A stretch of 64,000 nt of DNA from Ensifer canadensis. GTDB taxonomy: Bacteria > Pseudomonadota > Alphaproteobacteria > Rhizobiales > Rhizobiaceae. The first letter of the stretch is position 1, and the number at the start of each line of letters is the position of its first letter. The notes under the pieces are model-generated. The model saw only the letters and a list, made by a program, of their open reading frames with translations, searched no databases and had not been told where the DNA came from. The position numbers were made by a program, and so were the translations under genes. The stretch spans positions 839,501-903,500 of the forward strand of contig NZ_CP083374.1 of the NCBI RefSeq assembly GCF_017488845.2, given 5' to 3'. Shown here one piece after another: positions 17,634 through 61,131 of the stretch.

Positions 17634-17642
17634 CGAGACCTC

Positions 17643-17676
17643 GCCTCCTCCGGCCCGATCTCGGGCCGGAGGAGGC
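17643..17676 (+). promoter_or_regulatory. Intercistronic stem-loop agpA-agpB
   Basis: GCCTCCTCCGGCCCGA pairs perfectly with its complement over 16 bp, with only TC between the arms. It starts 10 bp after the agpA stop. No T-run follows, so it more likely protects the abundant binding-protein mRNA or attenuates agpB than fully terminates. Confidence 0.75.
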
Positions 17677-17744
17677 ACCCGCATTCACCCGGTGCGCTGT
17701 CTCTAGCCGGCGCACTGCAAGTCCATCCGACAGAAGGAAACGGC

Positions 17745-33795: not shown

Positions 33796-33806
33796 TGACG
33801 ACGTTC

Positions 33807-42747: not shown

Positions 42748-43659
42748 ATGCGCGTCGCATTCGTCGGGACAGTCGAGGGTTCGAGGATCGCTCTTGAAGC
42801 GCTCGTGTCTGTGGGTCGCCCGCCCGGCCTGCTCCTCACCCTTCCCGGTGCAAAAGCAGGTCGACATTCGGATCATGCCGACCTTATGCCGATTGCGCGA
42901 AGAGCAGGGATCGATGTTGTCGAAACCTCTGATGTCAACGACGAGGCCACGCTTGCAACCCTCCGACAGTTCGCGCCCGATGTCATCCTTGTCATCGGGT
43001 GGTCTCAGATCTGCGGCCCCCAGTTTCGAAGCATCCCTGCACGCGGTTGCCTGGGTTTCCACCCGGCCGCCCTGCCAAGGCTACGGGGGCGGGGAGTCAT
43101 CCCCTGGACGATACTCTGCAACGAAAAGGTCACGGGATCGACCCTCTTCTGGCTCGATGATGGCATGGATTCCGGCGACATCCTGCTGCAACGATTGTTC
43201 GATGTCGCCGCCGACGAGACCGCGCGGACCCTCTACGACAAGCATACGCGCAACCTGTCGGAGATGATCGTCGAGGCGACGGATTTTCTGGAGAAGGGCT
43301 CGGCGAAAGGTATCCAGCAAGACGAACAGGGCGCAAGCTATTGCGCGCGCCGAAGAGCCGAGGATGGGTTGATCGATTGGCGAAGTTCGGCCGTGGACAT
43401 CGAGCGCCTCATTCGCGCCGTCGGCGATCCTTATCCCGGGGCATTCACCTTTTTCGGCGATCGCAAGATCGTTGTCACCCGCGCGACCGTGCACCCGAAT
43501 GCGGGCAAATATATCGGCCTGACGGGCCAGGTCCAAGTGTACACGAAAGCCGGCTTCCTCGTCTTGTGTGGAGACGGCAATTGCCTGGAAGTCATTGACT
43601 GGCAGGGGGATCGGCCAGCGTTACATGGCAAGCTGACGGATGGCCGCCCGGGACTTTAG
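42748..43659 (+). CDS. Formyltransferase-family protein
   Basis: A 303-residue protein with an N-terminal formyltransferase Rossmann half and a C-terminal OB-like half (DGLIDWRSSAVDIERLIRAVGDPYPGAF), the build of Fmt and of ArnA-type sugar N-formyltransferases. The catalytic region reads GFHPAALPRLRGRG (H105) and later LDDGMDSGDI (acidic residue near 141). Where Fmt and ArnA have NxH, this protein has GxH, so the usual catalytic Asn is replaced by Gly, a variant I associate with a side branch of the family. Given its neighbours, N-formylation of an amino sugar is the best guess. ATG 42748 is chosen with GGAG nine bases upstream; 42733 is an alternative. Confidence 0.8.
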   Translation: MRVAFVGTVEGSRIALEALVSVGRPPGLLLTLPGAKAGRHSDHADLMPIARRAGIDVVETSDVNDEATLATLRQFAPDVILVIGWSQICGPQFRSIPARGCLGFHPAALPRLRGRGVIPWTILCNEKVTGSTLFWLDDGMDSGDILLQRLFDVAADETARTLYDKHTRNLSEMIVEATDFLEKGSAKGIQQDEQGASYCARRRAEDGLIDWRSSAVDIERLIRAVGDPYPGAFTFFGDRKIVVTRATVHPNAGKYIGLTGQVQVYTKAGFLVLCGDGNCLEVIDWQGDRPALHGKLTDGRPGL

Positions 43660-43710
43660 ACAGGGGCAGCTTGAATCCAGGACGACAGGCGCCAACGGAG
43701 GGCTTTAACG

Positions 43711-44682
43711 ATGAGCAGACGGGAGTTGTGCGTTCTCTTTTCTTCCGCCGGACGGCGGGTCGAACTCATCCAGTGCTTTCGCGCCGCGGCCGCGCGGCTT
43801 GATGTGACGCTGCGAGTAATCGCGTGTGACAGGAGGCCGGAGCTCAGTGCCGCCTGTCATACGGCCGATCGGGCATACGCCGTGCCCAGTTGTGACGACG
43901 AGGCGTTCATCGACGCCGTCGCCGACATCTGTCGAACAGAAAACGTCGATCTCGTGGTGCCGACAATCGATCCCGAATTGTTGCCGTTTTCCCTCAACAC
44001 CGAGCGCTTCGCCGAGGCGGGAACACGGATCCATGTGAGCCAGCCCTTGGTGGTGGAAATCGCCCGGGACAAGCTGCGCACGATGCACACGTTCCACCGG
44101 GCGGGCCTCGCCGTCCCACGCACCGATACGCTGGAGAATGCCCGTCAGGCGATCTCCGACTGGACGTGGCCGGTCTTCGTCAAGCCGCGCTCAGGCAGCG
44201 CCAGTCGCTCCATCAGTATGATCCGCGACCCAAGCGCTCTTCCCAAGGATTGCGCCGAACCGATGATCGTCCAGGAATACCTCTCCGGCCCCGAATACAC
44301 GATCAGCATGTTCATCGATCGTGATGGCGTGGCCCGATCTTGCATCGCACACGAACGGCTCTCGGTGCGGGCGGGCGAAGTCGAGAAGGGGCGAACTGTG
44401 CGCCTGTCGGAGCTTCCCGCGCTTGCGCGGGGGATGGCTGAGGCACTGCCCGACGCACGCGGCGCCCTCTGCTTTCAGGCAATCGCCGATGCAACCCGCG
44501 GATTGCAGGTAATCGAACTCAACGCGCGGTTCGGAGGCGGTTATCCGCTTGCCGATCACGCCGGGGCGTGTTTCGCGCAGTGGCTGCTTGAGGAAGTCGC
44601 CGGCCTTCCCGTCAGCGCCAACGACGATTGGCGAGATGGAGTACTCATGTTGCGCTATGATCAGGCTCTTTTTGACGGGTGA
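43711..44682 (+). CDS. ATP-grasp enzyme (carbamoyl-phosphate-synthase-like)
   Basis: A 323-residue ATP-grasp ligase with an N-terminal pre-ATP-grasp fold (LCVLFSSAGRRVELIQCF) and an ATP-binding part: PVFVKPRSGSASRSI, then MIVQEYLSGPEYTISMF, and the metal-binding VIELNARFGGGYPL. Such enzymes join a carboxylate to an amine through an acyl phosphate. It starts 51 bp after the formyltransferase, and the next gene begins four bases after its stop. Likely role: ligating an acid or amino acid to a sugar or sugar precursor; the substrate cannot be read from the sequence. Confidence 0.8.
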   Translation: MSRRELCVLFSSAGRRVELIQCFRAAAARLDVTLRVIACDRRPELSAACHTADRAYAVPSCDDEAFIDAVADICRTENVDLVVPTIDPELLPFSLNTERFAEAGTRIHVSQPLVVEIARDKLRTMHTFHRAGLAVPRTDTLENARQAISDWTWPVFVKPRSGSASRSISMIRDPSALPKDCAEPMIVQEYLSGPEYTISMFIDRDGVARSCIAHERLSVRAGEVEKGRTVRLSELPALARGMAEALPDARGALCFQAIADATRGLQVIELNARFGGGYPLADHAGACFAQWLLEEVAGLPVSANDDWRDGVLMLRYDQALFDG

Positions 44683-44686
44683 CCAA

Positions 44687-45373
44687 ATGCGCTCCTTTGC
44701 TCGCGGGATCATCTTTGATCTCGATGACACACTCTATTTAGAGCGCGACTTCGTCTTCAGCGGCTTTGCGGCTGTCGGCGCATGGTGGCAGCAAAGAACC
44801 GGACAGACCGATTTTGCTGTGCGGTGTGCCCGTCTTTTCGCGGCGGGAGTCAGGGGCCAGGTTTTCGATCTTGCGCTTGCGGAAACGGAGGGCGAGGTCG
44901 ACCCTTCTCTGATAGAGCAACTGGTGACGATTTACCGGCACCATCAGCCATCAATCTCACTTGCCCCCGACGCGGCGCGTTTTTTGTTCGATCGCCCGAA
45001 CGATGACTTCATCGGCATCATCACCGATGGACCAGTCTCGACCCAGCGTTCGAAAATCAAAGCCCTTGGACTCGAGCATAAAGCTGACCTCGTCCTCTTT
45101 ACGGATGCCTGGGGCATGTCTTATCGCAAGCCACACCCAAGAGCATTCGAAGCTGTCGAGACTGCGTCGCATCTAACGGCAGCGCAACTCACCTATGTTG
45201 CCGACAATGCCATCAAGGATTTTGTCACGCCCCGAACAAGGGGCTGGCAGACCGTTCAAATCCTGCGCGACGATCGCATCCACCGGTGCGACGCGCCGAC
45301 GCCGATGCACCAGGCACAATCACGAATCGTTACATTCGACGAACTCGAGTTAGCGCTCGACCGCTGTCCTTAA
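44687..45373 (+). CDS. HAD-superfamily hydrolase
   Basis: A 228-residue HAD phosphatase. Motif I IIFDLDDTLY (Asp nucleophile near residue 10), motif II GIITDG, motif III YRKPHPRAF (Lys), motif IV YVADNAIKDF. A helical cap lies between motifs I and II. The start ATG 44687 sits four bases after the ATP-grasp stop; an ATG at 44657 is possible. In this context it may remove phosphate from a sugar or from the product of the ATP-grasp step. Confidence 0.85.
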   Translation: MRSFARGIIFDLDDTLYLERDFVFSGFAAVGAWWQQRTGQTDFAVRCARLFAAGVRGQVFDLALAETEGEVDPSLIEQLVTIYRHHQPSISLAPDAARFLFDRPNDDFIGIITDGPVSTQRSKIKALGLEHKADLVLFTDAWGMSYRKPHPRAFEAVETASHLTAAQLTYVADNAIKDFVTPRTRGWQTVQILRDDRIHRCDAPTPMHQAQSRIVTFDELELALDRCP

Positions 45374-45722
45374 TCCCCTCACTTGTCGCAATTCGACACT
45401 TGCGAACCTAAATGCTTGATCTTTATGGACGTCTGCCTGCGCCATCAAAACCCATCGATCTTGTAGATTACGTTTATCGCCCCAAAGGATTAATCCTTCA
45501 AAATTAGTTTACTTTCCGAAATCAAAGTGGTCTCTAGAGTTCAATGCAAATAGGGAAAAGGTAAAACACGCTCCGACACCGAACAGGTCGAGAGCGTATA
45601 TCTTTTTTATGCTATGGAATTGACGGAACTCCACCAGAAGTAACGCATATACTTTCGGTCGTATTACTCGCCCGGCCCATTCTGGCCACCGGTTAGCGAA
45701 GCCATGTCGAAGGAGGGGCGTT
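45374..45722. other. Intergenic region before the dehydratase
   Basis: About 350 bp, more AT-rich than its neighbours, with no supported gene. Probably a separate promoter for the dehydratase-glycosyltransferase group. I see no clear operator. Confidence 0.45.
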
Positions 45723-47915
45723 ATGTTTCGCATTCCGACCGCCTTTAAGGCGTTTTACGGTGCGTGGGCATTTCGTGTAATGAATCATCGAGCCATCGCA
45801 GACAGCGCAGCGTTCCCGGCAACTGCCCGGGACGCCGCGATCACACTTGCGCAGCTTGGCGTCAGGAAACTCAAATCGGCCGCTCGTGGCGCACGAAAGA
45901 ACGCTGCTCTCTATGCGGTGGATTTGGCATCCGCTGCGATCGCGCTTTTCCTCGCACTATTCCTGCGGTATGGGCCTGGAGGCCTGAGCGATCGCCCCGA
46001 TACGATGCAGATCCTGGCTTGGTCGTCTGCCCAGTATTTGGCGGTCTGCGCGGCCATGTTCCCGCTCTCGGGTCTCTACAGTCGAAACTGGAAATACGGG
46101 TCAATCAGCGACCTCGTGATTATCATCCGCGCGGTGGTCCTGACCTCGCTCGTGCTCATCGCCCTTTTGTTCTTTTCGACACGCCTCACCGATATGCCGC
46201 GAACTGTCGTGCCGCTGCAATCGCTGCTTTTGATTGCCTTCCTTGCGACCTCCCGCTTAAGCTTCCGCGCAGACGAATTCCTGCCTTCCAAAAACAAGCG
46301 TTCGGAAAAGGCCGACGCCGATGGCCATCGCCACCGCGTTCCCCTGCTTCTGGTTGGAGCCGGCAACGCCGCGGATCTCTATCTACGCGCTTTGTTTCGC
46401 GATCCGGCGGCGCCCTATGTGCCGGTCGCCTGTCTCGACACGAGTGAATCTCAAGTTGGCCTGATGCTGCATGGGGTACCGATCGCAGGCAGGCTCGAGG
46501 ATCTGGAACAGGTCGTCGCCGATCTCAGGGCCGAGGGCAAGCAACCCTGCCATATCGTTTTCACCGAACCCCTGTCGTCCTTCGATGAGACGGCTTCGGG
46601 CGAGTTACTCCAAGCCGCCGAACGCCTTGGGATCGCAGTCTCGCGGCTGCAAAGCGCTACGGAGTTCAAGCAGACCAGCAACGAGAACCCATACGAGCTC
46701 CGATCGATCGAAATGACAGACCTGCTCGAACGGCCGCAGGCCGCCCTCGACAAGGACGCCATCAGGCGCTTGATTGCCGGCCGGCGAGTTCTTATCACTG
46801 GGGCAGGCGGGTCGATCGGCAGCGAACTTACCCGCCAGATCGCCGCTTGCGGCCCGGCCGAGATCGTCCTGGTCGACAATACCGAATTCAATCTCTATTC
46901 GATCGACCTGTGCCTAAAGGAAGAGTTTCCGGAGATCCGCCATTCGAACTGCCTTGGCAGCGTTCGGCGCAGCCAGAGGGTCAATGAGATCTTCGAAGCG
47001 CACTTGCCGGAACTGGTCTTCCACGCCGCCGCGCTCAAACATGTGCCCATGGTTCAGATCAATCCCTGCGAAGGCGTCCTGACCAATGTCATCGGCACCA
47101 TGAACGTCGCGAACGCAGCCAAGCGGTTCGGTGCACTCGCCATGGTGCAGGTGTCTACCGACAAGGTGGTGAACTCCTCCAGCATAATGGGCATGACGAA
47201 ACGGCTTGCCGAACTCTATTGCCAGGCGCTCGATCTCGATGGTGTCACAAGCGGGCAGGGACCCCGCTTCATGACCGTTCGCTTCGGCAACGTGCTTGGA
47301 TCAAGCGGATCCCTTATCCCGCTCTTTAAGCATCAGTTGGCCAAGGGCGGTCCGTTGACGGTCACGGACGCGAGAATGACGCGTTTCTTCATGACCATCC
47401 GAGAGGCCGTCGAGCTGACGCTTCAGGCATCGGCTTACGGTTTTCAGAAGCAGATAGGCCAAGGCGAAATCTTCGTTCTCGACATGGGCGAGCCTGTGAA
47501 GATCATTGACATCGCTCGACGCATGATCCGTCTGGCGGGCTTCGTGCCGGACAAGGACATCATGATCGAGATCGTTGGATCCCGACCGGGCGAAAAGCTG
47601 TTCGAGGAACTGTTCGATCCGACCGATAAGCGCATCCAGTCGGCCATCCCCGGCGTGCTTGGAGCGGTCCCTCAACCCGTGCCCTCTTCGGTGTTGAAGA
47701 GCGCATTCAATCGTATGCAGCGCGATGCCGAACGATGTGACGAGAGTTCTGTTCTGGCAGCGATCGCGCAATTGTTGCCGAATGCGGAAATCCCCCAAGA
47801 CATGATTTCCGCAGCAAGGGCGGCTCGTCGATCGACCGGTCGCAGTGTTGGCGTTATCGCGCTCGGCAAAAAGACGGCGGTGCGGCCGCAGACCACCAGC
47901 AGGCCGCGTCAGTAG
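45723..47915 (+). CDS. Membrane nucleotide-sugar 4,6-dehydratase (CapD/WbpM family)
   Basis: A 730-residue protein with four membrane helices in the N-terminal 190 residues (the first near 62-82, LYAVDLASAAIALFLALFLRYG), a Rossmann-like linker domain, then the catalytic SDR domain. NAD motif VLITGAGGSIGSELTRQ (near residue 355) and active-site segment STDKVVNSSSIMGMTKRLAE (near 480), the Met/Lys form of WbpM-like enzymes. It would convert UDP-GlcNAc or similar to a 4-keto-6-deoxy sugar, the first step to QuiNAc, FucNAc or diamino sugars. Start ATG 45723 after GAAGGAGGGGCGTT. Confidence 0.9.
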   Translation: MFRIPTAFKAFYGAWAFRVMNHRAIADSAAFPATARDAAITLAQLGVRKLKSAARGARKNAALYAVDLASAAIALFLALFLRYGPGGLSDRPDTMQILAWSSAQYLAVCAAMFPLSGLYSRNWKYGSISDLVIIIRAVVLTSLVLIALLFFSTRLTDMPRTVVPLQSLLLIAFLATSRLSFRADEFLPSKNKRSEKADADGHRHRVPLLLVGAGNAADLYLRALFRDPAAPYVPVACLDTSESQVGLMLHGVPIAGRLEDLEQVVADLRAEGKQPCHIVFTEPLSSFDETASGELLQAAERLGIAVSRLQSATEFKQTSNENPYELRSIEMTDLLERPQAALDKDAIRRLIAGRRVLITGAGGSIGSELTRQIAACGPAEIVLVDNTEFNLYSIDLCLKEEFPEIRHSNCLGSVRRSQRVNEIFEAHLPELVFHAAALKHVPMVQINPCEGVLTNVIGTMNVANAAKRFGALAMVQVSTDKVVNSSSIMGMTKRLAELYCQALDLDGVTSGQGPRFMTVRFGNVLGSSGSLIPLFKHQLAKGGPLTVTDARMTRFFMTIREAVELTLQASAYGFQKQIGQGEIFVLDMGEPVKIIDIARRMIRLAGFVPDKDIMIEIVGSRPGEKLFEELFDPTDKRIQSAIPGVLGAVPQPVPSSVLKSAFNRMQRDAERCDESSVLAAIAQLLPNAEIPQDMISAARAARRSTGRSVGVIALGKKTAVRPQTTSRPRQ

Positions 47916-47945
47916 GTATTGGTGTACGCAAGGAAGGAGCATGGC

Positions 47946-49145
47946 ATGGCAGGGATCCCCGTACTTCATTGCATCACGGGGCTGAATGTCGGCGGTGCGG
48001 AATACATGCTCGCGCGCTTTGGCGCAAAGCTCGCTCAAACGCATTACGACCCTTCCGTGCTGTCGCTGATGTCGCCCGGCCCGATCGCGCGCGATTTGCA
48101 AGCGGCCAACATCGATGTCGCGACACTCCAAATGAACCAGTCTCGACCAGGCCCTCGTGCCTTGGTCAGACTGCGTGCGATCGTGAGATCGTCTCGCCCG
48201 AGCCTGCTTCACGGATGGATGTATCACGGCAATGTCGCAGCATCGCTCGGAGCGCTGCTCGGCGAGCGACAGCCCACCATATGGAGCATTCACCACTCCA
48301 TCGCCAACCTCGCCTCAGAGAAACTGCTGACACGTGCCGTTATCCGGCTGAGCGCTTCCCTTTCCCATCGCACAAGCGCAATTTCCTACTGTTCGCGGGT
48401 GTCGGCCGACCAGCACGAAGCGCTGGGTTTCGATCCGGACAAGCGGCGTATCATTCCAAACGGTGTCGATTGCGATCAGTTTCGCCCACGGCCCGACGCG
48501 CGACGGTATCTCTGCGACACGCTCTCAGTGCCCACTGAGCGCTTTCTTGTCGGCAATGTCGCGCGCGCACATCCGATGAAGGACCATGGCACCTTCGTGC
48601 GTGCAATCGCCACGCTTCGCAGCCTGGGGCTTGATGCTCACGGGATCCTGATCGGCGACGGCCACGAAAATGGGATCGTCCGACATTTGGCGGCCGAACT
48701 CGGCATAACACCGATGATCACCGTCTCAAACGCACGTGCGGACATTGACCGCCTGATGCCGGGCCTCGACCTATTCATGCTGTCGTCGGCTTGGGGGGAA
48801 GCATTTCCACTGGTCGTGGCTGAAGCAATGGCCAGTGGCGTGCCGGCGATCGCCACCGATGTCGGAGACTGCGCATGGCTGCTAGGAGACCGGCAGATGG
48901 TCGTTGAACCGGAAAACGCAGATGGCCTTGCAAAACTTGCCGCGTCGATCCTCTGCCTGTCGCAAAGCGCCCGGCGGCAACTGGGAGAACGCGCGCGTAG
49001 GCGCGTCGTCGAGCGGTTCTCCCTGAGATCCTACGTCGACAGCCACCTCGCGCTCTACGACGAGATCCTCGACCAGCAAGCCACCAATGCGGCGCGGCAA
49101 ATTGGGTGGCAGGCACCGGTCAACGCAGCCCGTCGTATGCGGTAG
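47946..49145 (+). CDS. Glycosyltransferase, GT4 family
   Basis: A 399-residue GT-B glycosyltransferase. The N-terminal acceptor domain has ITGLNVGGAEYMLARF; the C-terminal nucleotide-sugar domain has RFLVGNVARAHPMKDHGTFV and the SAWGEAFPLVVAEAMASGVPAIATDVGD motif of GT4 enzymes. ATG 47946 has AAGGAGCATGGC before it; the frame to 47919 is an over-extension. It lies 30 bp after the dehydratase and five bp before the next glycosyltransferase. Likely adds a sugar to the lipid-linked repeat unit on the cytoplasmic face. Confidence 0.9.
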   Translation: MAGIPVLHCITGLNVGGAEYMLARFGAKLAQTHYDPSVLSLMSPGPIARDLQAANIDVATLQMNQSRPGPRALVRLRAIVRSSRPSLLHGWMYHGNVAASLGALLGERQPTIWSIHHSIANLASEKLLTRAVIRLSASLSHRTSAISYCSRVSADQHEALGFDPDKRRIIPNGVDCDQFRPRPDARRYLCDTLSVPTERFLVGNVARAHPMKDHGTFVRAIATLRSLGLDAHGILIGDGHENGIVRHLAAELGITPMITVSNARADIDRLMPGLDLFMLSSAWGEAFPLVVAEAMASGVPAIATDVGDCAWLLGDRQMVVEPENADGLAKLAASILCLSQSARRQLGERARRRVVERFSLRSYVDSHLALYDEILDQQATNAARQIGWQAPVNAARRMR

Positions 49146-49150
49146 CGGCC

Positions 49151-50398
49151 ATGAAGGCATCAAAAACCGTTCCCAGCAAAACGGAAGCACCCCGCACCAG
49201 GATAGTCCTGATTGCGAGCTTGACGTCGTCGCTAACGAACTTTCGTCGCGAATTGATCAAGGATCTTGTCAAGGCAGGGTTTGATGTCGATGCCATGGCC
49301 CCTGACCATGATCCGATCGTGGAAGAAGAACTGGATACGCTTGGTGTGCGTTTCATCCGAATTCCCATGTCGAGGGCCGGGCTGAACCCCTTTGTCGACC
49401 TGGTGACGCTCGCTGCTCTGGTCCGTCACTTCCTGAAAGAACGTCCGGCGGCGATCCTGCCCTATACGATGAAGCCGATCATCTACGGCGGCATTGCCGC
49501 GCGGCTCTGCGCGGTGCCCCATAGGTTCTTTCTCGTCACCGGACTCGGCCATATGTTCGCTGTCGAGCCTGACGAAAGCGCCGTTCGCCGATCGCTGCGC
49601 TCGATTTGCGTCGGGCTCTACCGATGCGCGATGAAGAAGGCACGGGCCGTCTTCGTATATAACGAAGCGGATCTTGCCGACATCAGAGAGCGCCGGCTGG
49701 TCGACGACCCCTCTATTGTCTCGACAGTGCCGGGGTCGGGCGTCGATCTTGATTACTACCACGCATCGACGCCACCGCTTAAGCCGACGGTTTTTCTTCT
49801 GATCGCCCGGCTCCTGCGCGACAAGGGGGTCCCGGAATATGTCGCTGCGGCGCGGACAATTCGCGCGCGCCATCCCGACGCCATCTTCCAACTGCTGGGG
49901 CACTATGATCCCAACCCGACGGCGATTAGCCAAGGAGAAGTCGCTGGATGGGTGCAGGAAGGTGTGGTGCAGTATCTTGGAACCACCCGCGATGTGCGTC
50001 CGTACCTTGCGGCGTGCAGTGTGTTCGTGCTCCCCTCCTACTACCGGGAAGGCATCCCCAGAAGCATTCTGGAGGCGATGGCGACCGGACGCGCAATCAT
50101 CACGACGGATCTACCCGGCTGCAGGCAAACGGTGGACCCAGGTGTCAACGGCGTTTTGATCGAACCTCGCAGCGTCTCGTCGCTTGTTGAAGCGATGGAA
50201 GGCTTCATTGAGAAGCGTTCCGCGATTACCGCCATGGGGCGCGCTTCGCGCCGGATGGCGGAAGAACGGTTCGACGTCAGGCTGGTAAACCGCCTGCTTC
50301 TTGCGCGTATGCAAATAGACGACAAAGCGACGACCGCATGCACCGACGACAGTCAGCACCAACCCTCAGGCGGGGCTGCGGCCCAGGCGACGAAGTGA
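49151..50398 (+). CDS. Glycosyltransferase, GT4 family (PglA-like)
   Basis: A 415-residue GT-B enzyme. The N-terminal half contains LPYTMKPIIYGGIAARL and FFLVTGLGHMF, a pattern I associate with PglA/WbpX-type GT4 enzymes that add an N-acetylated amino sugar after the first residue. The C-terminal half has FLLIARLLRDKGVPEYV and SYYREGIPRSILEAMATGRAIITTD. Start ATG 49151, five bases after the upstream stop. Its 3' end overlaps convergent cysQ by 46 bp. Confidence 0.9.
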   Translation: MKASKTVPSKTEAPRTRIVLIASLTSSLTNFRRELIKDLVKAGFDVDAMAPDHDPIVEEELDTLGVRFIRIPMSRAGLNPFVDLVTLAALVRHFLKERPAAILPYTMKPIIYGGIAARLCAVPHRFFLVTGLGHMFAVEPDESAVRRSLRSICVGLYRCAMKKARAVFVYNEADLADIRERRLVDDPSIVSTVPGSGVDLDYYHASTPPLKPTVFLLIARLLRDKGVPEYVAAARTIRARHPDAIFQLLGHYDPNPTAISQGEVAGWVQEGVVQYLGTTRDVRPYLAACSVFVLPSYYREGIPRSILEAMATGRAIITTDLPGCRQTVDPGVNGVLIEPRSVSSLVEAMEGFIEKRSAITAMGRASRRMAEERFDVRLVNRLLLARMQIDDKATTACTDDSQHQPSGGAAAQATK

Positions 50399-51156
50399 GG
50401 GTTGGCGAAGTCGCAATCGCTCACCTGCCGGCACTTGCCATACCTCAGGACCGAGCCGTCCAGGCGCAGCACCGTTCCGCCGGCAGCAGCCAATACCGCA
50501 TCACCGGCGGCAGTATCCCACTCCATCGTCCGGCCAAAACGCGGATAGACATCCGCCCGCCCCTCGGCCAGCAGGCAGAATTTTAGGGATGAACCAACCG
50601 AGGTACACTCCTGGACATGGTGCCGGGCAAGGAATCTCTCGGTTTCCGCGCAGGAATGGCTGCGGCTCGCGACCGCGATGATCGCGGTTTCACGACCGCG
50701 CGCGCGGATCTCCCGTCGCTCGCACACGCGACCGAAGCGATCGATCTCCAGGCGCTGCGCGATGCCACCGGCCGCAACATAGGCTCGTCGCAAGGCCGGG
50801 GCATACACGATACCGGCAATCGGCTTGCCGTTCTCGATAAGGGCAATGTTCACAGTGAAATCGTCTCGGCGAGCAATAAACTCTTTGGTGCCATCGAGTG
50901 GGTCGACCAGATAGAAGGTGCCTTCCTCAACGGAGGGAGCACAGCCCGCAGCTGCCGCCTCCTCCCCGACGATGGGGGTGCCGGGCGAAACTTTGGCGAG
51001 ACGTTCGAATATCACCGCCTCGGCCCTGAGATCGGCTTCGGTAACGGGCGATCCATCGGCCTTCGCAACGGCGTCAGCGCCGGCATGATAGACATCGAGA
51101 ACGGCGATGCCCGCAGCCAGTGCCGTCTCCTCGAAAAGTTCGGACAACGCGTTCAT
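50353..51156 (-). CDS. cysQ: 3'(2'),5'-bisphosphate nucleotidase CysQ
   Basis: A 267-residue inositol-monophosphatase-fold enzyme that degrades PAP, the by-product of sulfotransferases, to AMP. Metal-site motifs are GEEAAA (near residue 63), [13 protein letters not shown] (near 83-95) and [11 protein letters not shown] (near 218). It is the last gene of the sulfate-activation operon and its start overlaps the cysNC stop by four bases. Presence beside a sulfotransferase fits a PAP-clearing role. Confidence 0.92.
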
Positions 51157-53048: not shown

Positions 53049-53947
53049 CAGAAGTATCCTTCCCGCTTCTTCCTTTCCATGCCGGACGCTTCGTCGCGAT
53101 CGACAAGCCGGTTGCGCCGCTCCGAGGAGCGGCTGAAGACCATCTCCTCGATGATCTCGGGAACAGTCGTTGCCGTGGACGGGATGGCGCCGGTGAGGGG
53201 ATAGCACCCCAAGGTGCGGAAACGCACTTGGCGCTGACGGACGATCTCGCCCGGCTGCAGCGGCATGCGGTTATCATCAACCATGATCAACATGCCGTCC
53301 CGTTCGACGACCGGACGTTCGGCGGCGAAATAAAGCGGGACCACCGCGATGCTTTCCTGCAGGACATATTGCCAGACATCCAGTTCAGTCCAGTTCGAGA
53401 GCGGGAAGACCCGCATGGTTTCTCCCGGCGTGAGCCTGGTATTGAAGGTCTTCCACATCTCCGGTCTCTGTCGCTTGGGATCCCAAGCCTGACCGGCAGT
53501 GCGCAAGGAAAAGATCCGTTCCTTCGCCCTCGATTTTTCCTCATCGCGCCTCGCGCCCGCGATCGCCACGTCGAAGCGATGTTTCTCCAGCGCCTGGCGC
53601 AATGCCACCGTCTTCATGAGGTGGGTGTGGACGTTCGAACCGTGCTCGAAAGGACTAATGCCTTGAGCGACACCATCTTCGTTGATGTGAACGATAAGCC
53701 TGAGATCGTTGTCTCGTGCGACTTGGTCCCTGAAGGCGATCATCTCCTTGAACTTCCAGGTCGTATCGACGTGAAGCAGCGGAAACGGTGGTTTTGCAGG
53801 AAAGAATGCCTTCATCGCCAAATGAAGCAGCACGCTTGAATCCTTGCCGACGGAATAAAGCAGCACTGGGTTGGCGGATGTTGCCGCGACCTCCCTCATG
53901 GTGTGGATGGCTTCGGCCTCAAGGCGGGCAAGATGCGAAAGAGCCAT
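53048..53947 (-). CDS. cysD: Sulfate adenylyltransferase small subunit CysD (NodP-like)
   Basis: A 299-residue PP-loop enzyme that, with CysN, makes APS from sulfate and ATP. The PP-loop is [15 protein letters not shown] (near residues 28-42); other family motifs are [19 protein letters not shown] and the C-terminal [17 protein letters not shown] 53947 has AAGGGG seven bases upstream; the ORF to 54016 is over-extended. First gene of the cysD-cysNC-cysQ operon. Confidence 0.93.
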
Positions 53948-54120
53948 GCGACAACCCCTTTGTGTCGCGTTGCGAAATCGACCGGCGCAAATCAATTGTC
54001 GTCGGGAAAGCGGCACAGCGGCTTCCCGAAACAGGTTTCGTAAATGATGTTCGAATTTAAGGTCCGCGCCGCCCCGGTGGCAATTAGCGAGAACGGGTTA
54101 GCCTAAAAGGGTAGGTCGGG

Positions 54121-55083
54121 TCAGGCGTGTCGCCCCTGCGCCCCCTGGTAGTGGGCGATAATGGCCTTCGGGGAAATCGGCGCCTGCGCTTTCCGACCAT
54201 AAAAATACACGCCGCTTGCGCCATCCTCCGCAAAGCGTGCGGGAATGATCGCATCCAGATATTGCGTCCAGAAGAAGGCGAGCTTTGCAAGCTTGCCCAG
54301 CATCACCGACCGAAAGACACTGCGAACGAGATAGTCGACTGACCACATGAACTGCGTGCCGGGGCCACCATTGGCCCCAGATGAAATCGTCTCGAACCAG
54401 CGGAACAGATATCGATGGCCGCTTTCGCTGAACCGGGTGAAATCGAATGCTCCCTCGTGCACCTGCTGCATGAAGGGCGTTTCAGCGTAGACGAGCCCCT
54501 TGTCGCTCAGGACGCGCCAGATCTCGGACACGACCTGGGCAGGCTGGAGGACGTGCTCAAGAACGGCCTGGATGACCACTGCGTCGAAAAAGTCGTCCGG
54601 CAAGGGAATCTGATGGGCGTCGGCTATGAACTGGGTGAGGGGGGAGGCATAGACGTCGAAGGAGTAGACGCTGATCTCCGGATGCTCATAGAGCGGTTCC
54701 ATTCCTTGGCCAATACTCCCGCCGCCGATGACAAGAAGCTTGGCCGGGCGGGCCGCGGTCGTCTGCAGGTCATCAACCAATCGATTGACGTTGGAGACAG
54801 TACTCTTTTTTGTCGGCGAGAGCAGTTTCTTGAAGAACCTCGTCAAGCGACCGTATTGTTTGCGCTCGATGGGGCTTGCCGCCTTCGAGCGTAGGAAATC
54901 GCCTTCGCTAAACACGGATTCCGAAAAATCGATCATAACCGGCTTGCCGTCGACCAGGCGATAGGACATCTCGGGGTTCTCGGGACAGACCGGTTTCAGC
55001 ACATCGGGTGAAACGCGCGCCAGTTTCGAACCGGTGCGCGGGCAACGCAATGCTTCAAAGCATTCTTCCACTTCGACCAGCAT
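54121..55083 (-). CDS. SAM-dependent methyltransferase
   Basis: A 320-residue class I methyltransferase with a Trm112-like N-terminal part (EALRCPRTGSKL, residues 8-20) before the SAM domain. SAM motif LLVIGGGSIGQGMEPL, acidic loop FDVYAS, and FFDAVVIQAVLEHVLQPAQVVSEIWRVL (motifs II/III). ATG 55083 has GAGGAT upstream. It shares strand with the sulfate genes but is separated by about 170 bp. A glycan O-methylation role is inferred from location. Confidence 0.8.
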   Translation of the reverse strand: MLVEVEECFEALRCPRTGSKLARVSPDVLKPVCPENPEMSYRLVDGKPVMIDFSESVFSEGDFLRSKAASPIERKQYGRLTRFFKKLLSPTKKSTVSNVNRLVDDLQTTAARPAKLLVIGGGSIGQGMEPLYEHPEISVYSFDVYASPLTQFIADAHQIPLPDDFFDAVVIQAVLEHVLQPAQVVSEIWRVLSDKGLVYAETPFMQQVHEGAFDFTRFSESGHRYLFRWFETISSGANGGPGTQFMWSVDYLVRSVFRSVMLGKLAKLAFFWTQYLDAIIPARFAEDGASGVYFYGRKAQAPISPKAIIAHYQGAQGRHA

Positions 55084-55175
55084 CACTTATCCTCGCCCTC
55101 AGCAACTGGAACCGCATCTGACAGTTTGCGTTGCGACAGAAACTTGCGTTCCTTCAAACAGTTTCCGCGCACGAA

Positions 55176-56504
55176 CTAGCGAATAGGACCTAACCCTGAC
55201 CTAGGGCGTCCGGCCCGCAATATTCGCGCAGGCGGTAGCGCTCCATTGCCGATGCTCCTTTTCTCCACAGCGCGACAATAGCTTGTTGCCAGTCCTAGCG
55301 TAAGGATTATTGGGACAGTCCAGAACCGCCCATAAAGGTGAGGAAACGCATTAGCCATCAACGCGAACATAGACACGCTGACAAGCGCGCAGGCAGCGTA
55401 AGCTGCACCTCCCGGCACGCGATACGTCCGCACAATCGGGAGAAACGTGGCAGCAATCATAACACCAAAACCTATGGCGGCCATGATTCCGCCTTCGGTC
55501 GACAACAAAAGATACAGGTTGTGCACGGGCTGCCTGATGGCGCTGGTGACTTGGTATTGATCGGCGCCGACACCGATCCACAATGTCTCCTGCACTCGAC
55601 CAAGGGCCTCATGCATCAATTCGACGCGATGGTCAAAGGTTCCAGCCTGGCTTAGATCGCCCGTTTCCAAGGCGCCGAGCACGCGTTTTTGAAAGACCGC
55701 CGGCAGGTAGTCGCGGCCGGAGTGCACAATCCAAATGGCAAAGGGTGTCAAACAGGCAAGGCCGACCACGACATACTTCCAGCTGCCGCTCAGGACCATG
55801 AACCCGAGGAAAGTGAACGCAAAGCCGGCAAGACCGGTATTCGAACCCGTCAGCAAGATGCCATAGGCCATGGTTGCCCCAATGACGATCGCATAGACTT
55901 TGCCGACTTTTCCCTTGGAAGCCAGCAACATAAGCATCGGCATCGCAAGCGCGATTACGGCCGCGCATTCGTTCTCCCTTTCGACAAATCCCGTCAAGCG
56001 ACCATTGCCGCTTACGAAAGCGGTGTTCTTCTGGCCATCGATATGGATCAGGTAAATCCCATGCAAGCACATGAGGAAGATCGACGCTACGTAGACCTTG
56101 GCGAAGGTCCACATGGTGCCCAGATCGCGCCCGCAAACAACAAGGGCAACAACCAGATAGGCGAACAGATATTGCCCGACGATGACGATGCCCCGTATCG
56201 GGGCGGTGGACAGAAGGCTGCTGATCATCAGCCCGGAGCACAGCAACACCAGACCGCAAAGCCACACAGTCGCCGATGCCCGCCCCCACAGCCGTAGCGG
56301 CAATCCACCGGTAAGCGCACGCAACCCAAGAGCGGCGCAAAACAACAAGTCGCTCAAGGTGAAATAGAACATGTTCGTGCGCAAGAAATTCACCGCCGAA
56401 AGGAAAACGGCACACACGGCACAGGCGAATTCAATCCTTTGCCAAAAGGTGTGTCGGTCGGAGGAGATCGGCTGAACACCGGACGTTCGTGTCATGTGCG
56501 TCAT
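55176..56504 (-). CDS. O-antigen polymerase/ligase-like membrane protein (Wzy/WaaL)
   Basis: About 442 residues with ten or more hydrophobic spans and a large periplasmic loop with HRVELMHEALGRVQETLWIGVGADQYQ and PVHNLYLLLSTEGG, the H...N pattern of Wzy_C/WaaL proteins. It probably polymerises or transfers lipid-linked repeat units in the periplasm. Start unsure (56504 or 56495); no strong ribosome-binding site. Divergent from the co-polymerase gene with about 210 bp between, which should hold both promoters. Confidence 0.85.
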   Translation of the reverse strand: MTHMTRTSGVQPISSDRHTFWQRIEFACAVCAVFLSAVNFLRTNMFYFTLSDLLFCAALGLRALTGGLPLRLWGRASATVWLCGLVLLCSGLMISSLLSTAPIRGIVIVGQYLFAYLVVALVVCGRDLGTMWTFAKVYVASIFLMCLHGIYLIHIDGQKNTAFVSGNGRLTGFVERENECAAVIALAMPMLMLLASKGKVGKVYAIVIGATMAYGILLTGSNTGLAGFAFTFLGFMVLSGSWKYVVVGLACLTPFAIWIVHSGRDYLPAVFQKRVLGALETGDLSQAGTFDHRVELMHEALGRVQETLWIGVGADQYQVTSAIRQPVHNLYLLLSTEGGIMAAIGFGVMIAATFLPIVRTYRVPGGAAYAACALVSVSMFALMANAFPHLYGRFWTVPIILTLGLATSYCRAVEKRSIGNGALPPARILRAGRPRSGLGPIR

Positions 56505-56713
56505 TGACGTCGACCACAACCATTGGGAAATGAGTTCGTTATTCTACAGGCCACATATTTGCACACATGCTTGAAATGAATCCGCTAAAATTCCCTTTGA
56601 CATTGTTCCCAAACTGCTCCCAAGTAAATAGGCGAATGTGAAGCCTAATATCACTTGTTGACCGACCGACGTGGACGCAAATGGCTCCAACGGAGGACTC
56701 GGGATAGGCCATC

Positions 56714-58987
56714 ATGCTGTTATATGACCGAGAGTACGAAGCCGATGAGAAGGGTGGGCGCCGATTTGGACCAGTACCGCCGGTCTCGCGCGACACCTCG
56801 TCCTATGAACTTGCGGATATCGTCGACTTCTTCCGGCGCCACGCCAAGCTCATCTTGATTACAGCCCTGACGGGCACCCTGCTCGCTACCATTATTACCC
56901 TGTCGCTCACCAAGATCTATACGGCCTCCTCGACGCTCGTCTTCGACCGCAACGATATCCGGCCGTACGAAGCCGTCATCGAATTGCAAAAACAGGAACG
57001 TGACAAGTCCGCGATGGAGACCGAAATGGATCTCATCAAATCTCGCGAATTCCTCGGCTTTGTGGTTGACGACTTGAATTTGATGGAAGACCCATACTTC
57101 AATGCCAGATTGTCAGCAGACACTCAGCAAGACGCATCGTCGTTTTGGGGATGGCGGTGGTCTCCACGCAAAGCGCAGGCAGGACCGCGGCGCGTGACGG
57201 CGGGCCAGAATGTTCATCGGCCCACTACCCTCGACCCAGTCAACCGTGATCGGGTCATCACAAAACTCGCCGCTGCCATCTCTGCCGATCGCAAGGGCGA
57301 AAGCCTTGCGATGACAATTTACGTTCAGCATCCCTTGGCGCTTTATGCAGCCGAGATCGCCAATGGCGTAGCAGCGGACTACGTGGTTTGGTCAACCCAG
57401 ATGAAAGAACTTGCAGCGCATGCGACTGTCGATACCCTTCGCACCCAGGCCAAAGATCTAGTGCAGTCGATAGCCAAGAAGGAACGCGAGATCGCCGACT
57501 TCACGATGCGCAGCGACCTGACATTCGATCCACGCGACGATGTTCTGCGTGCCCGCACCGAACAGCTCAATCAGCAGTTCATTCTGGCGAGGGTCGACGA
57601 AGCCGGCGCATGGGCGAAGTATAATGAGGCCAAGAACATTCTTTCAAAGACCGGCATCGACTCCGCCGGCCGCGTTATGACGTCGGACCTGCTCGGCTCG
57701 CTGCGAACCGAACAAGGAAGGCTGGAACGCGGCCGGGCCCAACTTGCCTCGAAATTTGGCAAGAACCACCCCCAGGTAGTCGAGGTCGATGCGGAATTGG
57801 CGTCGAATCGCCAAGTGATCGAAGGTGAAATCAATCGCATCCTCCAGGAACTGGAAAACGATGCGAAAGTCGCAACCGTCAGGGTGCAGAAATTCCAGGA
57901 GGAAGTCGGTCGGCTGCAAAAACAAATGCAGGACCGAAATCTCGATGAAATTCGCCGTCGTGAATTGGAGCGTGACCTGCTGACCGAGCAGAAGCGCTAT
58001 GATGCAGTGGTCCTGAGACTCGGCACGCTCGATCCGGAGAAGGATGAGATCAAGGCCACGGCCCGCATTGCGTCGTTCGCCGAAGTTCCGATCGATCCGT
58101 CGTTTCCCAAGCCCGGCTTACTCATTCCCATTGGCGGCTTGGCTTCGCTACTGCTGGGCATGGTTGGCGCGATGGCGGTCGAGGCGGCGGACGGACGCGT
58201 TCGGACGGCCCGCACGCTCGAAGCGATCGTCAACCAGCCGAACTATCTCTCCATCCCCGATCTAACGGCGACGTTGAAACCGGATCAAACGCTATATCGC
58301 TCCATTCTCGCCGACCCACGCTCACCATTCGCACGCTCAATGCGCTCTCTATGTCTCGGCTGGAAGAGCCAGGACGCATCCAAAGTCGTGATGTTCTGCT
58401 CTCCTTCAGCCAATGAAGGCAAGACAACTTGTGCCGTGGGCATGGCCACCGTTGCCGCTCTGAACGGTTTGCGTTCCGTTATCCTGGACATGGACCCCGG
58501 CCCTACGGGGGCGACCACGATGATCGGAGCGCCGCAAAGGCCATTCAATCTCGATCTTGTGGCCGATGGCGCCACCGATCTGACCTCAATTAGCGCGCAA
58601 GCACCTGACTTTCCTTTTGTTCACGTTCTCACCTCGCGTCTGACGCTCCAGGATCAGGAGCGTATTTTTGGAGAACTGCGCAGGCACTTCGATCTTATCA
58701 TCGTCGATACGCCTGCGGCCGATAATGATGACGACGCGATCTGGCTCGCAAGCCATGTCGATGCGGTGTTTGTGGTTGCCGCTGCGGAGCGGACCTACGA
58801 GAAGAACCTCCTTGACCTTGTCGAGCGACTAACGACAAGCCGCGCGAGGATCATCGGGAGCATCCTAAATTTTGCCGGCATCTATCGGCCAAAGCCGATG
58901 TGGAAATCGCCGCGTGACTGGCTCCGGAACAGGTTTGACTCATGGAGGAGAACGGATAACTTGGGATTGCAGGTACGGCGCTCCTAA
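56714..58987 (+). CDS. Polysaccharide co-polymerase, Wzc/ExoP-like
   Basis: A 757-residue chain-length regulator: Wzz domain with a first membrane helix near residues 47-66 (LILITALTGTLLATIITLSL), a long periplasmic coiled coil (about 240-440), a second helix near 473-493, then a cytoplasmic BY-kinase-like ATPase with SPSANEGKTT (near 563) and VILDMDPG (near 593). The Walker A' keeps Asp-Met-Asp but lacks the usual acidic/basic ending, and the C-terminus has no tyrosine cluster, so kinase autophosphorylation is doubtful. ATG 56714 follows GGAGGACTCGGGATAGGCC. Confidence 0.88.
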   Translation: MLLYDREYEADEKGGRRFGPVPPVSRDTSSYELADIVDFFRRHAKLILITALTGTLLATIITLSLTKIYTASSTLVFDRNDIRPYEAVIELQKQERDKSAMETEMDLIKSREFLGFVVDDLNLMEDPYFNARLSADTQQDASSFWGWRWSPRKAQAGPRRVTAGQNVHRPTTLDPVNRDRVITKLAAAISADRKGESLAMTIYVQHPLALYAAEIANGVAADYVVWSTQMKELAAHATVDTLRTQAKDLVQSIAKKEREIADFTMRSDLTFDPRDDVLRARTEQLNQQFILARVDEAGAWAKYNEAKNILSKTGIDSAGRVMTSDLLGSLRTEQGRLERGRAQLASKFGKNHPQVVEVDAELASNRQVIEGEINRILQELENDAKVATVRVQKFQEEVGRLQKQMQDRNLDEIRRRELERDLLTEQKRYDAVVLRLGTLDPEKDEIKATARIASFAEVPIDPSFPKPGLLIPIGGLASLLLGMVGAMAVEAADGRVRTARTLEAIVNQPNYLSIPDLTATLKPDQTLYRSILADPRSPFARSMRSLCLGWKSQDASKVVMFCSPSANEGKTTCAVGMATVAALNGLRSVILDMDPGPTGATTMIGAPQRPFNLDLVADGATDLTSISAQAPDFPFVHVLTSRLTLQDQERIFGELRRHFDLIIVDTPAADNDDDAIWLASHVDAVFVVAAAERTYEKNLLDLVERLTTSRARIIGSILNFAGIYRPKPMWKSPRDWLRNRFDSWRRTDNLGLQVRRS

Positions 58988-59003
58988 CCCGAGTTCGAGC
59001 CGT

Positions 59004-59858
59004 CTACACCGATCGGCGCTTGATATCTTCCATGGGGGCTTTCAACCAGTCGCCCAAGTCGCGGCCAAGCAAACCTGCAAGGCGGTCGGTCTCGTCCTCA
59101 TAGTAACCGATCATCCGCGAGGTCAATTCCTTGTTGAGCGGTACATACTTGAACTCTGCCGAGATCATTGATCTCAAAAATTCGAAGCCTTTCGTGTCAC
59201 GCAAGGGCGCAACGATCGGCTTAAGTGGCTTGAGTATCTGCCGTAATCTGGCGTCCACCAGAGGTTTGGTCTTGTCCTTTACCCTCTGAGCGACTGGCTC
59301 AAAAGCGGGGTTTCCGTCAAGGCCGAGAAAGTGCCGCAGGTCCTGAACCTGCCCGGCGGCATCCCTCTTGAGGTCTTCGTAAAACAGAACGAGCAGCCTT
59401 TCCCGAGGGAAGAACTCGAGAAACCGGCGCAACTGCCGGAAATACAACCCACCCTCGAGGAACCTGCCGCCCGCACCCTGGCGCGGATCGAGATAGCGCT
59501 CGATGTCGCCAGTCGCCTCGCCGCGGCGATGGAGCATGCAGTAGTCAGAATAGGCCCGCTCGACGGGATTTCTCAGCTGTGCCACCAGCAAGACGTGCGG
59601 CAGACTGTGGTGGATACGCGCCGCGGCGGCAGGGGTATCAAGGTAGGAGTTCGACTTTTCACCGATGATAAGGCCCTCGCTGGCCGGCTTGAAGTTCTCC
59701 AGATACCAACGATCTCCGCGATCGTGGTAGCGACTGAAATAATGGATCTCCGGATCCGGCATATGGACACGTGGATCCAATTGCAGCGATTGTTGCAACC
59801 AGGTGGTGGCGCTCTTCGTTGCGCCAATGATCAGGAAGTTGATATCGCCCATTTCCAT
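59004..59858 (-). CDS. PAPS-dependent sulfotransferase
   Basis: A 284-residue sulfotransferase. The 5'-phosphosulfate loop is ATKSATTWLQQSL (residues 13-25) and the 3'-phosphate motif is LRNPVERAYSDY (near 97-108), as in the Sulfotransfer_1 (NodH/heparan-type) family. It would move sulfate from PAPS to a sugar hydroxyl in the cytoplasm. ATG 59858 has GAGGAG upstream. It lies 22 bp after a glycosyltransferase, and PAPS supply genes are 6 kb away in the same locus. Confidence 0.9.
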   Translation of the reverse strand: MEMGDINFLIIGATKSATTWLQQSLQLDPRVHMPDPEIHYFSRYHDRGDRWYLENFKPASEGLIIGEKSNSYLDTPAAAARIHHSLPHVLLVAQLRNPVERAYSDYCMLHRRGEATGDIERYLDPRQGAGGRFLEGGLYFRQLRRFLEFFPRERLLVLFYEDLKRDAAGQVQDLRHFLGLDGNPAFEPVAQRVKDKTKPLVDARLRQILKPLKPIVAPLRDTKGFEFLRSMISAEFKYVPLNKELTSRMIGYYEDETDRLAGLLGRDLGDWLKAPMEDIKRRSV

Positions 59859-59880
59859 CGTCTGCTCCTCAAGGCCAAAC

Positions 59881-61131
59881 TCAGGGTGCTGTCCTTCTTA
59901 CTCCAAAGCTCCGGTACTCGCGTCCAACGATGCGCTCATAAAGCAGGCTGATGCCTTTGACATGAGCCTCGGTGCCATATTTCGTCAAAGCGTTTTCACG
60001 AGCCGCCGAACTGATGCGGCGATGTTCCCCGGCGTTCATCAGCAGTCTCGCCAGCGGATCGACGAAGGCCTCCGGCTTTTCAGGCTCAACGAGGAAACCA
60101 GTCACACCGTCGACGATTGCCTCGATGTTGCCGCCGTGGCGGGTCGCAATCACAGGGGTCGCGAGCAACATGGCTTCAATCAACGTCCGCCCGAATGGTT
60201 CGTTGATGGCCGGTACCAGCAATGCGTCGAGCGCACTCATGCAAGGCGCGACCGGCGCGCGAAAGCCCATCGTTTTGATACGCCGCTCGACTCCAAGTTC
60301 CAGCGCGCGCGCTCGCATCTCCGGTTCCGGGTTCGGAAGGTCCGGTGATGGGATGCCGAAGACGAGACCAACCAGCGGGAAATCCGGAAAGCGCTGGAGG
60401 AAAGCGTGGATGACCTCGACAAACCTGACCGGGCGCTTCCTGTCGATCAAGCCACCCACATAGCCGACGAAGCGGGTTTCCTCGGGCAGCTCGAGTTCCC
60501 TGACGAATTCGCGCCTGCAGTCGTCCCGATCGGGCAAAATGGTTGGGTGATCGAAGGGGCTGTGCAGTACGCTCAGCTTATGGGAAACCGGCAGGATCGG
60601 CCGCGTCGGCTGCACGTAGCGCGAGACCGTAACAATGTGATTTGCCAATAGAGGCGCCATGACGTTAACGCCGAAGGCACCGGGATCGCCGCGATGATGC
60701 CAAAGCAGCCGCGCGCCGGAAAGGCGAGCCGCCAGGCCCCAGGTCGCGTGCATCTGGCCGTCGTTGGTATGTACGATATCAACCTCATGTTCACGAAGGA
60801 ATGAACTGAGCAGCGCAGTGGTTCGTGCATATCCAAAACCGCGCGAGAGCTTGCCGGCCACGCCATATGAATGGCGAGGCGACATCACCGCAACTTCGGG
60901 CGACTTGACGAAAGGCACTCCACGTTCTGCGAGATAGGCTTCAAGTGCCTTTCCGGGCTGATGCAGAATGACAAGTGGTTTATATTTCGATTGATCGAGC
61001 GCACAGATCAAACCAACGGCGGAGATGTGGCTGCCGCCGACTTCATCTCCCACAAATGGATAGGCCACTACGAGACGGTCAACGTCGCTCAGGATATTCT
61101 TCTCCCCGGATCGCCTCTCCCTGGGAGCCAC
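59881..61131 (-). CDS. Glycosyltransferase, GT4 family
   Basis: A 416-residue GT-B enzyme. N-terminal YPFVGDEVGGSHISAVGLICAL, central RFVGYVGGLIDRKRPVRFVEV, and the C-terminal EPFGRTLIEAMLLATPVIATRHGG motif of GT4. GTG start at 61131 with AAAGGACC just upstream. It is followed by the sulfotransferase, likely in one operon, which hints that the sugar it adds could be the one sulfated. Confidence 0.88.
   Translation of the reverse strand: MAPRERRSGEKNILSDVDRLVVAYPFVGDEVGGSHISAVGLICALDQSKYKPLVILHQPGKALEAYLAERGVPFVKSPEVAVMSPRHSYGVAGKLSRGFGYARTTALLSSFLREHEVDIVHTNDGQMHATWGLAARLSGARLLWHHRGDPGAFGVNVMAPLLANHIVTVSRYVQPTRPILPVSHKLSVLHSPFDHPTILPDRDDCRREFVRELELPEETRFVGYVGGLIDRKRPVRFVEVIHAFLQRFPDFPLVGLVFGIPSPDLPNPEPEMRARALELGVERRIKTMGFRAPVAPCMSALDALLVPAINEPFGRTLIEAMLLATPVIATRHGGNIEAIVDGVTGFLVEPEKPEAFVDPLARLLMNAGEHRRISSAARENALTKYGTEAHVKGISLLYERIVGREYRSFGVRRTAP

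Follow-up and report, generated by a model that had tools for sequence, protein, structure and literature searches.

Does the polysaccharide locus on a replicon of Ensifer canadensis (contig NZ_CP083374.1, here C5) encode a pathway of its own, or must it depend on genes at other loci or alter a glycan that is already there? The latter had been concluded in an initial annotation, in which Wzx and an initiating phosphoglycosyltransferase (PGT) were reported to be lacking. The window analyzed, that is, the whole stretch of 64,000 nucleotides, is G000:C5:839501-903500, in a genome of 8.09 Mb and 6 contigs in which C5 comprises 946,878 bases; window positions are C5 positions minus 839500. Genes were called from matches to Pfam and NCBIfam profiles, and an open reading frame (ORF) check together with these profiles found every gene named in the annotation to be present (Table 1). 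The label "plasmid-borne" stands as well, since the window carries RepC and ParA-type genes (window 7505-11330, profile search).

Both of the proteins reported as lacking were found farther along the same contig, Wzx at 9.6 kb and a PF02397 transferase at 12.5 kb past the window end; the latter match (C5:916077-916586) is one of four to PF02397 in the genome. Their absence, true inside the window only, is an effect of the window edge, and the view that the locus must borrow them falls because both lie just past that edge. With C5 read to its end, the locus extends ~17 kb beyond the window and spans about C5:882.2-920.1 kb, within which the PGT, Wzx, OPX, Wzc-like and Wzy_C proteins are all encoded. 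By sequence, the PGT, the Wzx and the PCP and OPX export proteins of a Wzx/Wzy pathway are in place, and the Wzy_C protein matches PF04932, a domain common to Wzy and WaaL. This gene set looks like that of a self-contained Wzx/Wzy pathway to a sulfated polysaccharide. We consider it probable, if well short of certain, that this ~38 kb locus directs the synthesis of a sulfated polysaccharide, either an exopolysaccharide or a capsular one, in which the first sugar of the repeat is an N-acylated 2,4-diamino-2,4,6-trideoxyhexose.

The distribution of the genes among relatives was then compared. Across 247 genomes of the family, the sulfotransferase matched in 13 at E ≤1e-20, 11 of these at ≥49% identity, and the formyltransferase-like protein matched in 14 at E ≤1e-50 (own genome included in each count). 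All 11 genomes with a close sulfotransferase also had the formyltransferase-like gene, as against 3 of the 236 others (Fisher p = 9e-17, with kinship not corrected for), and in 10 of the 11, again counting our own, the two genes lay at most 31 kb apart on one contig. An order-wide draw of 347 genomes yielded the formyltransferase-like gene in six (own and G047 included); the four new ones belong to three other families and carry most of the locus, with cysDNC absent. A scattered distribution without co-occurrence, which the initial annotation had named as one of the outcomes that would overturn its proposal, was rejected by this family-wide co-occurrence and by the comparison of loci.

Gene counts over loci cover 19 relatives, our own row and the isolated G100 being excluded, with identity thresholds set by us at 25-50% depending on the gene (ATP-grasp ≥45%, GT4a ≥40%) and with separate pieces pooled for G057, G156 and G226. 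The dehydratase and GT4c were present in 19/19, Wzy, Wzc, OPX, PGT, PIG-L and DegT in 18/19 each, Wzx and the pectate-lyase-like protein in 17/19 each (no Wzx match was obtained within the 40 kb read of G471), and GT4b and the sulfotransferase in 16/19 each. Lower counts were obtained for GT4d (14/19), CysD and CysNC (10/19), GT4e (9/19), CysQ (8/19), GT4a and the methyltransferase (5/19), GDSL, SxtJ-like protein and carbamoyltransferase (3/19), and the second sulfotransferase-like gene (1/19). Because of these counts, cysDNC and the methyltransferase are regarded as variable parts of the locus, while the sulfotransferase is near its core. With the methyltransferase in five relatives, the methylation initially proposed would be no more than a decoration specific to some strains. 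ATP-grasp and HAD occurred together in 12 of the 19 relatives and were both absent in seven; that this pair (window 43711-45373) ligates an amino acid or carboxylate to the glycan would be a guess.

The gene combination was not recognized in the initial annotation, but much the same set is found in the nodP2-SMb21248 cluster on pSymB of S. meliloti. Homologues of most genes lie in one ~34 kb stretch of S. meliloti 1021 pSymB (NC_003078 786-820 kb), with identities of 73% (CysD), 75% (CysNC), 63% (CysQ), 71% (dehydratase), 59% (formyltransferase-like protein), 59% (sulfotransferase), 64% (Wzx), 65% (OPX), 56% (PGT), 70% (PIG-L) and 71% (DegT). The pSymB cluster differs in its rearranged gene order and its divergent Wzc and Wzy (26-34%), and no close ATP-grasp, HAD, methyltransferase or carbamoyltransferase was detected in the 49 kb read. 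We regard the C5 locus as related to the S. meliloti cluster but diverged from it. According to the accessible part of a 2017 study, several genes in this ca. 30-kb cluster are activated by Clr/cAMP, and a sulfated surface polysaccharide was proposed as the product (PMC5498481); the word "formyl" does not occur in its main text. Members of the cluster were described in 2025 as PhaR-regulated, with an exoF3 site at pSymB 813,544 (PMC12542648, available in part), a position with which our OPX match on pSymB agrees. A structure of the polymer is given in the available portions of neither paper, and a search for later work on the cluster or for the same gene combination, with most subscription papers outside it, gave nothing beyond PMC5498481. 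The synechan xss cluster of Synechocystis 6803, from a different phylum, is likewise a Wzx/Wzy system on a megaplasmid, with two sulfotransferase genes and a product shown to be sulfated; in contrast to the locus studied here, its OPX gene is located elsewhere, and its gene list, in the part of the source available, names no sulfate-activation, bacillosamine-type or formyltransferase genes (PMC8205485).

Which sugar might start the repeat was examined through the closest solved structures. For the PGT this was the diacetylbacillosaminyl-1-phosphate transferase PglC (8G1N, E 1.5e-37), and for PIG-L these were diacetylchitobiose deacetylases. The dehydratase was closest to WlaL (5BJU), which we take to be PglF, and its STDK...M...K stretch is kept in 16 of 16 aligned rows. 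In Campylobacter, bacillosamine is made and transferred by PglF-PglE-PglD-PglC. The best solved relative of DegT was 7L7X (E 9e-131; next best 4e-40), that is, Pcryo_0638, which aminates UDP-4-keto-6-deoxy-GlcNAc on the way to a diacetamidotrideoxyglucose (PMC8040287, in the part available). Because dehydratase, DegT and PGT all find their best solved relatives in the bacillosamine pathway and in Pcryo_0638/0637 of that source, a bacillosamine-type start is suggested; a 4,6-dehydratase, a 4-aminotransferase and a PglC-like PGT are all present, as far as sequence alone can tell. Unlike the bacillosamine pathway, the locus has no PglD-like gene that we could find, and has the formyltransferase-like and PIG-L genes instead.

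This exchange recurs among relatives. At 1e-100, DegT matched in 22 of the 247 family genomes, namely in 13 of the 14 genomes with the formyltransferase-like gene and in nine others. All nine DegT stretches of the latter hold a PglD-like acetyltransferase gene, in eight exactly between PGT and DegT and in the ninth (G147) ~7 kb away, and within the 17-20 kb read PIG-L and the formyltransferase-like gene were found in none of them. Conversely, a search with two PglD-like queries only (E 1e-8) gave no match in any of the 21 stretches with the formyltransferase-like gene (own locus included; 17 hold the DegT), nor in the two DegT stretches that lie apart from this gene in G156 and G226. Both PglD-like proteins that were checked against TIGR03570 exceeded its cut-off. 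PIG-L lay at most 10 kb from DegT in 19/19 formyl-type DegT stretches, and PGT, formyltransferase-like gene, PIG-L and DegT form an unbroken row in six of the 21 loci (G002, G011, G301, G337, G471, G560). In a DegT tree the two types were split on one branch (19 vs 9 rows, support 100/98), with the long row of G147 placed unsurely. The simplest reading seems to be that the formyltransferase-like protein and PIG-L took the place of PglD; the acceptor would therefore be the C4 amine.

The formyltransferase-like protein has an altered active site. Its predicted structure (pLDDT 92.8) has the complete fold of ArnA and Fmt, which are N10-formyltetrahydrofolate formyltransferases, and it shares the His and Asp of their catalytic triad; unlike in these enzymes, however, Asn102, His104 and Asp140 of ArnA align with Gly108, His110 and Asp146 (our own residue count), so that Gly-His-Asp stands in place of the catalytic Asn-His-Asp. 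The 120 closest of 2,072 homologues, which apart from one fragment are at least 53% identical while more distant ones may keep the Asn, include one 187-residue fragment without a visible motif. Gly stands at the Asn position in all 119 that show the motif, and 106 of these have Ala where HxSLLP has Ser. Gly was also found in 16/16 locus rows of the alignment. Among seven PF00551 matches in our own genome, six have the motif, five with Asn and this protein with Gly. The Asn is called crucial in FMT, ArnA and GART, and FDH hydrolases have Ile there (PMC4388273, accessible part); Gly corresponds to neither. A literature search for formyltransferases lacking this Asn gave nothing beyond PMC4388273, with most subscription papers outside its reach. 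As a conserved family, these proteins are presumably active. The N-formylation initially proposed is likely from the gene context, but it would be carried out by a protein without the catalytic Asn of known formyltransferases.

Sulfation was approached through the sulfotransferase and the sulfate-activation genes. The "complete sulfate-use set" of the initial annotation was recovered: CysD, CysNC and CysQ exceed curated NCBIfam cut-offs and the sulfotransferase is present. 3'-Phosphoadenosine 5'-phosphosulfate (PAPS) is made by CysD and CysNC, and 3'-phosphoadenosine 5'-phosphate (PAP) is cleared by CysQ. The sulfotransferase motifs GAxKxATTW and RNPxxRAYSDY, which we take to be the PAPS-binding 5' and 3' motifs, are invariant in 13/13 rows. 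Heparan sulfate 3-O-sulfotransferases are among its nearest solved structures. Its Glu37 (P-x-P-E-[IL]-H) is invariant and in the alignment matches the Glu of E-x-H-F in 3-O-sulfotransferase 3A1, where this residue is the catalytic base. The proposal of a locus for a sulfated surface polysaccharide is supported by the genes present, by the intact motifs of the sulfotransferase and by conservation, and we infer that the polymer is sulfated. Overall, a large plasmid of E. canadensis, a soil bacterium with nodulation genes, carries what seems to be a complete gene set for a sulfated surface polymer that would start from an unusual amino sugar.

PF01507 matches the genome in five places: C1 has two matches, of which one is likely CysH, while C2, C3 and C5 have a single match each. 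The C3 copy lies in a nod cluster with NodA (L084, G000:C3:174001-194000), where the names of the other nod genes are our assumption; that the C5 locus is itself a nod cluster was rejected, the genome's one NodA match being on C3. Over 633 residues, NodQ of the C3 cluster and NodQ of S. medicae WSM419 are 100% identical, which suggests recently acquired symbiosis genes. In a CysNC tree of 24 proteins, nod-cluster and polysaccharide-locus copies interleave (window 51153-53953, L084:12832-15632, L081), with five changes of label, three of them forced by well-supported branches. Within a clade of 18 rows (94/91), two polysaccharide pairs branch off ahead of every nod copy. This suggests that loci of this type may have given rise to nodPQ, perhaps repeatedly.

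Several other explanations were weighed. The cysDNCQ genes might serve Nod-factor sulfation or general sulfur assimilation rather than a polysaccharide, in keeping with the lack of cysDNC in nine of the 19 relatives and with the close kinship of the nod-cluster copies; however, the genome has a separate CysD/CysNC pair in the C3 nod cluster and further copies on C1 and C2, and the C5 pair is accompanied by a sulfotransferase and CysQ, so we regard this as quite unlikely. Less likely still is that the locus only decorates an existing glycan, an LPS (lipopolysaccharide) O-chain or K-antigen, with sulfate and that Wzy_C is a WaaL ligase. The domain is ambiguous on its own, and sulfated LPS and KPS (capsular polysaccharide) of S. 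meliloti are on record (cited in the accessible part of PMC5498481), but the locus has its own export set of PGT, Wzx, Wzc-like protein and OPX, as do 17-18 of the 19 relatives.

The acyl transfer invites two further alternatives, of which the one that deserves more weight, although it too is on the unlikely side, is that the formyltransferase-like protein moves a group other than formyl, acts as a hydrolase, or serves in binding or regulation. The Gly in all 119 motif-bearing homologues among the 120 closest, the frequent loss of the HxSLLP Ser, the Asn kept by the five other motif-bearing paralogues of the same genome and the residues reported for transferases and hydrolases (PMC4388273) all speak for it. 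A distinctly weaker candidate is that PIG-L frees the C2 amine and that C2, not C4, is acylated. The unbroken PGT-formyltransferase-PIG-L-DegT rows would fit it, as would the joint absence of PIG-L and the formyltransferase-like gene where PglD is present, but PglD acylates C4, and the DegT relative 7L7X acts on a 4-keto sugar.

The preferred reading, a self-contained pathway to a sulfated polymer, would run as follows; the genes present, their families and motifs, their conservation and the exchange of PglD are shown by the analysis, while substrates, the order of steps, formyl as the acyl group and sulfation are inferred from them. The dehydratase would convert UDP-GlcNAc to a 4-keto-6-deoxy sugar, and DegT would aminate C4 to give UDP-Qui2NAc4N, the bacillosamine precursor. 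The formyltransferase-like protein would acylate the C4 amine, adding most likely a formyl group where PglD adds acetyl, the PglC-like transferase would load the sugar onto undecaprenyl phosphate, PIG-L would remove one N-acetyl, and the GT4 enzymes would assemble the repeat. Sulfate from PAPS, supplied by CysD and CysNC, would be added by the sulfotransferase, with PAP cleared by CysQ. Flipping by Wzx, polymerization by Wzy and export by Wzc and OPX would follow, and the pectate-lyase-like protein may trim the polymer.

A number of points weigh against our reading. The formyltransferase-like family is without the Asn called crucial for formyl transfer, and the Wzy_C domain alone cannot separate a Wzy polymerase from a WaaL ligase. 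CysDNC is found in only 10/19 relatives, and the sulfotransferase is under threshold in 3/19. G100, one of 21 genomes, has the formyltransferase-like gene and no other tested gene in the 40 kb read. The G057 genes are split, with the sulfotransferase, GT4c and Wzy on a different contig; DegT and PIG-L are separated from the formyltransferase-like gene in G156 and G226, and in our own genome this gene and the dehydratase are ~29-33 kb from PGT-PIG-L-DegT. In S. americanum CCGM7, of which a 48 kb stretch was read, PGT, PIG-L, DegT, Wzx and OPX were not found. In the CysNC tree, G166 and G226 have copies outside the clade that holds the remaining polysaccharide-locus copies, and many shuffles cluster the labels just as tightly (84-92 of 500 reach equally few changes). 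To our knowledge, the sugar composition is known for no member.

We also considered a broader reading, in which this sulfated surface polymer would be made by rhizobia and by representatives of three further families in the order; its first sugar would be a bacillosamine relative with the PglD acetyl exchanged for another acyl, most likely formyl; the formyltransferase-fold enzyme would work without the catalytic Asn, and deacetylation by PIG-L would leave a free amine; in S. meliloti the polymer would be the Clr/cAMP-controlled polysaccharide; and the Nod-factor nodPQ would descend from the sulfate-activation genes of the locus. That all of this holds together is doubtful. While the S. meliloti cluster is already on record as the proposed source of a sulfated surface polysaccharide (PMC5498481, accessible part), the likely initiating sugar, the replacement of PglD and the unusual formyltransferase-like subfamily are new here. 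A poorly understood cluster of the model symbiont S. meliloti would gain a stepwise pathway with testable intermediates, and the analysis draws attention to a subfamily of formyltransferase-like proteins whose active site is altered, as well as to where the nodPQ genes of Nod-factor sulfation may have come from.

Table 1. Genes of the locus. Positions are those of the window, or of contig C5 where so marked (beyond the window).
Feature	Position	Strand	Remark
Formyltransferase-like protein	42733-43659	+	PF00551+PF02911; second ATG 42748; ArnA/Fmt fold
ATP-grasp protein	43711-44682	+	PylC-like N domain; carbamoyl-phosphate-synthase-like
HAD hydrolase	44684-45373	+	travels with ATP-grasp gene
Membrane 4,6-dehydratase	45723-47915	+	PF02719; WlaL (PglF)-like
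GT4 glycosyltransferase a	47919-49145	+	
GT4 glycosyltransferase b	49148-50398	+	longer ORF 49106-50398 used for scan
CysQ 3'(2'),5'-bisphosphate nucleotidase	50353-51156	-	TIGR01331 over cut-off
CysNC / NodQ-like sulfate adenylyltransferase large subunit + APS kinase	51153-53051	-	NCBIfam cut-off passed
CysD / NodP-like sulfate adenylyltransferase small subunit	53048-53953	-	NCBIfam cut-off passed
Methyltransferase	54121-55086	-	PF08241
Wzy_C membrane protein, likely Wzy polymerase	55176-56519	-	PF04932 match
Wzc/ExoP-like co-polymerase (Wzz/Wzc-like)	56714-58987	+	PF02706
Sulfotransferase	59004-59858	-	PF00685 and PF13469 over cut-off
GT4 glycosyltransferase c	59881-61131	-	
Sensor histidine kinase	62623-64407 (window-equivalent, past window end)	+	inside locus, membership uncertain
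GDSL	C5:904564-905955		
SxtJ-like	C5:906113-906544		below Pfam cut-off
Carbamoyltransferase	C5:906756-908588		
GT4	C5:908792-909937		
Second sulfotransferase-like protein	C5:909915-910889		weak: PF13469 27.8 bits vs cut-off 27
Pectate-lyase-like	C5:911660-913105		24.7 vs cut-off 24; NCBIfam PelZ far under cut-off
Wzx	C5:913116-914456	-	PF01943 and PF13440 over cut-off
OPX	C5:914701-915945		PF02563 and SLBB
PGT (initiating phosphoglycosyltransferase)	C5:916032-916691		PF02397, 167.7 bits
PIG-L deacetylase	C5:916691-917422		
DegT aminotransferase	C5:917391-918611		
GT4	C5:918920-920098		

The sensor kinase in the middle of the locus is followed, up to C5:904.5 kb, by a LuxR-type response regulator (read by eye), and the two may control the locus. 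Directly after the locus lies a second glycan block (L007:5825-20000, L008:1-2164), treated here as a separate locus, with ELM1-like, GT92, GT8-like, SIS/CBS (KpsF-like) and acyltransferase-SGNH proteins and an ABC transporter. Elsewhere in the window, an IS21-type transposase and IstB pair (2495-4810) is located near the repABC-type genes (7505-11330), and sugar-uptake and glycosidase genes (GH4, a family 5 solute-binding protein, a permease and GH2) lie at 13940-19882 and 31549-34095, as seen in a scan of 10 ORFs from the rest of the window. Contig C4 carries two RepC genes and is perhaps a fused or misjoined replicon.

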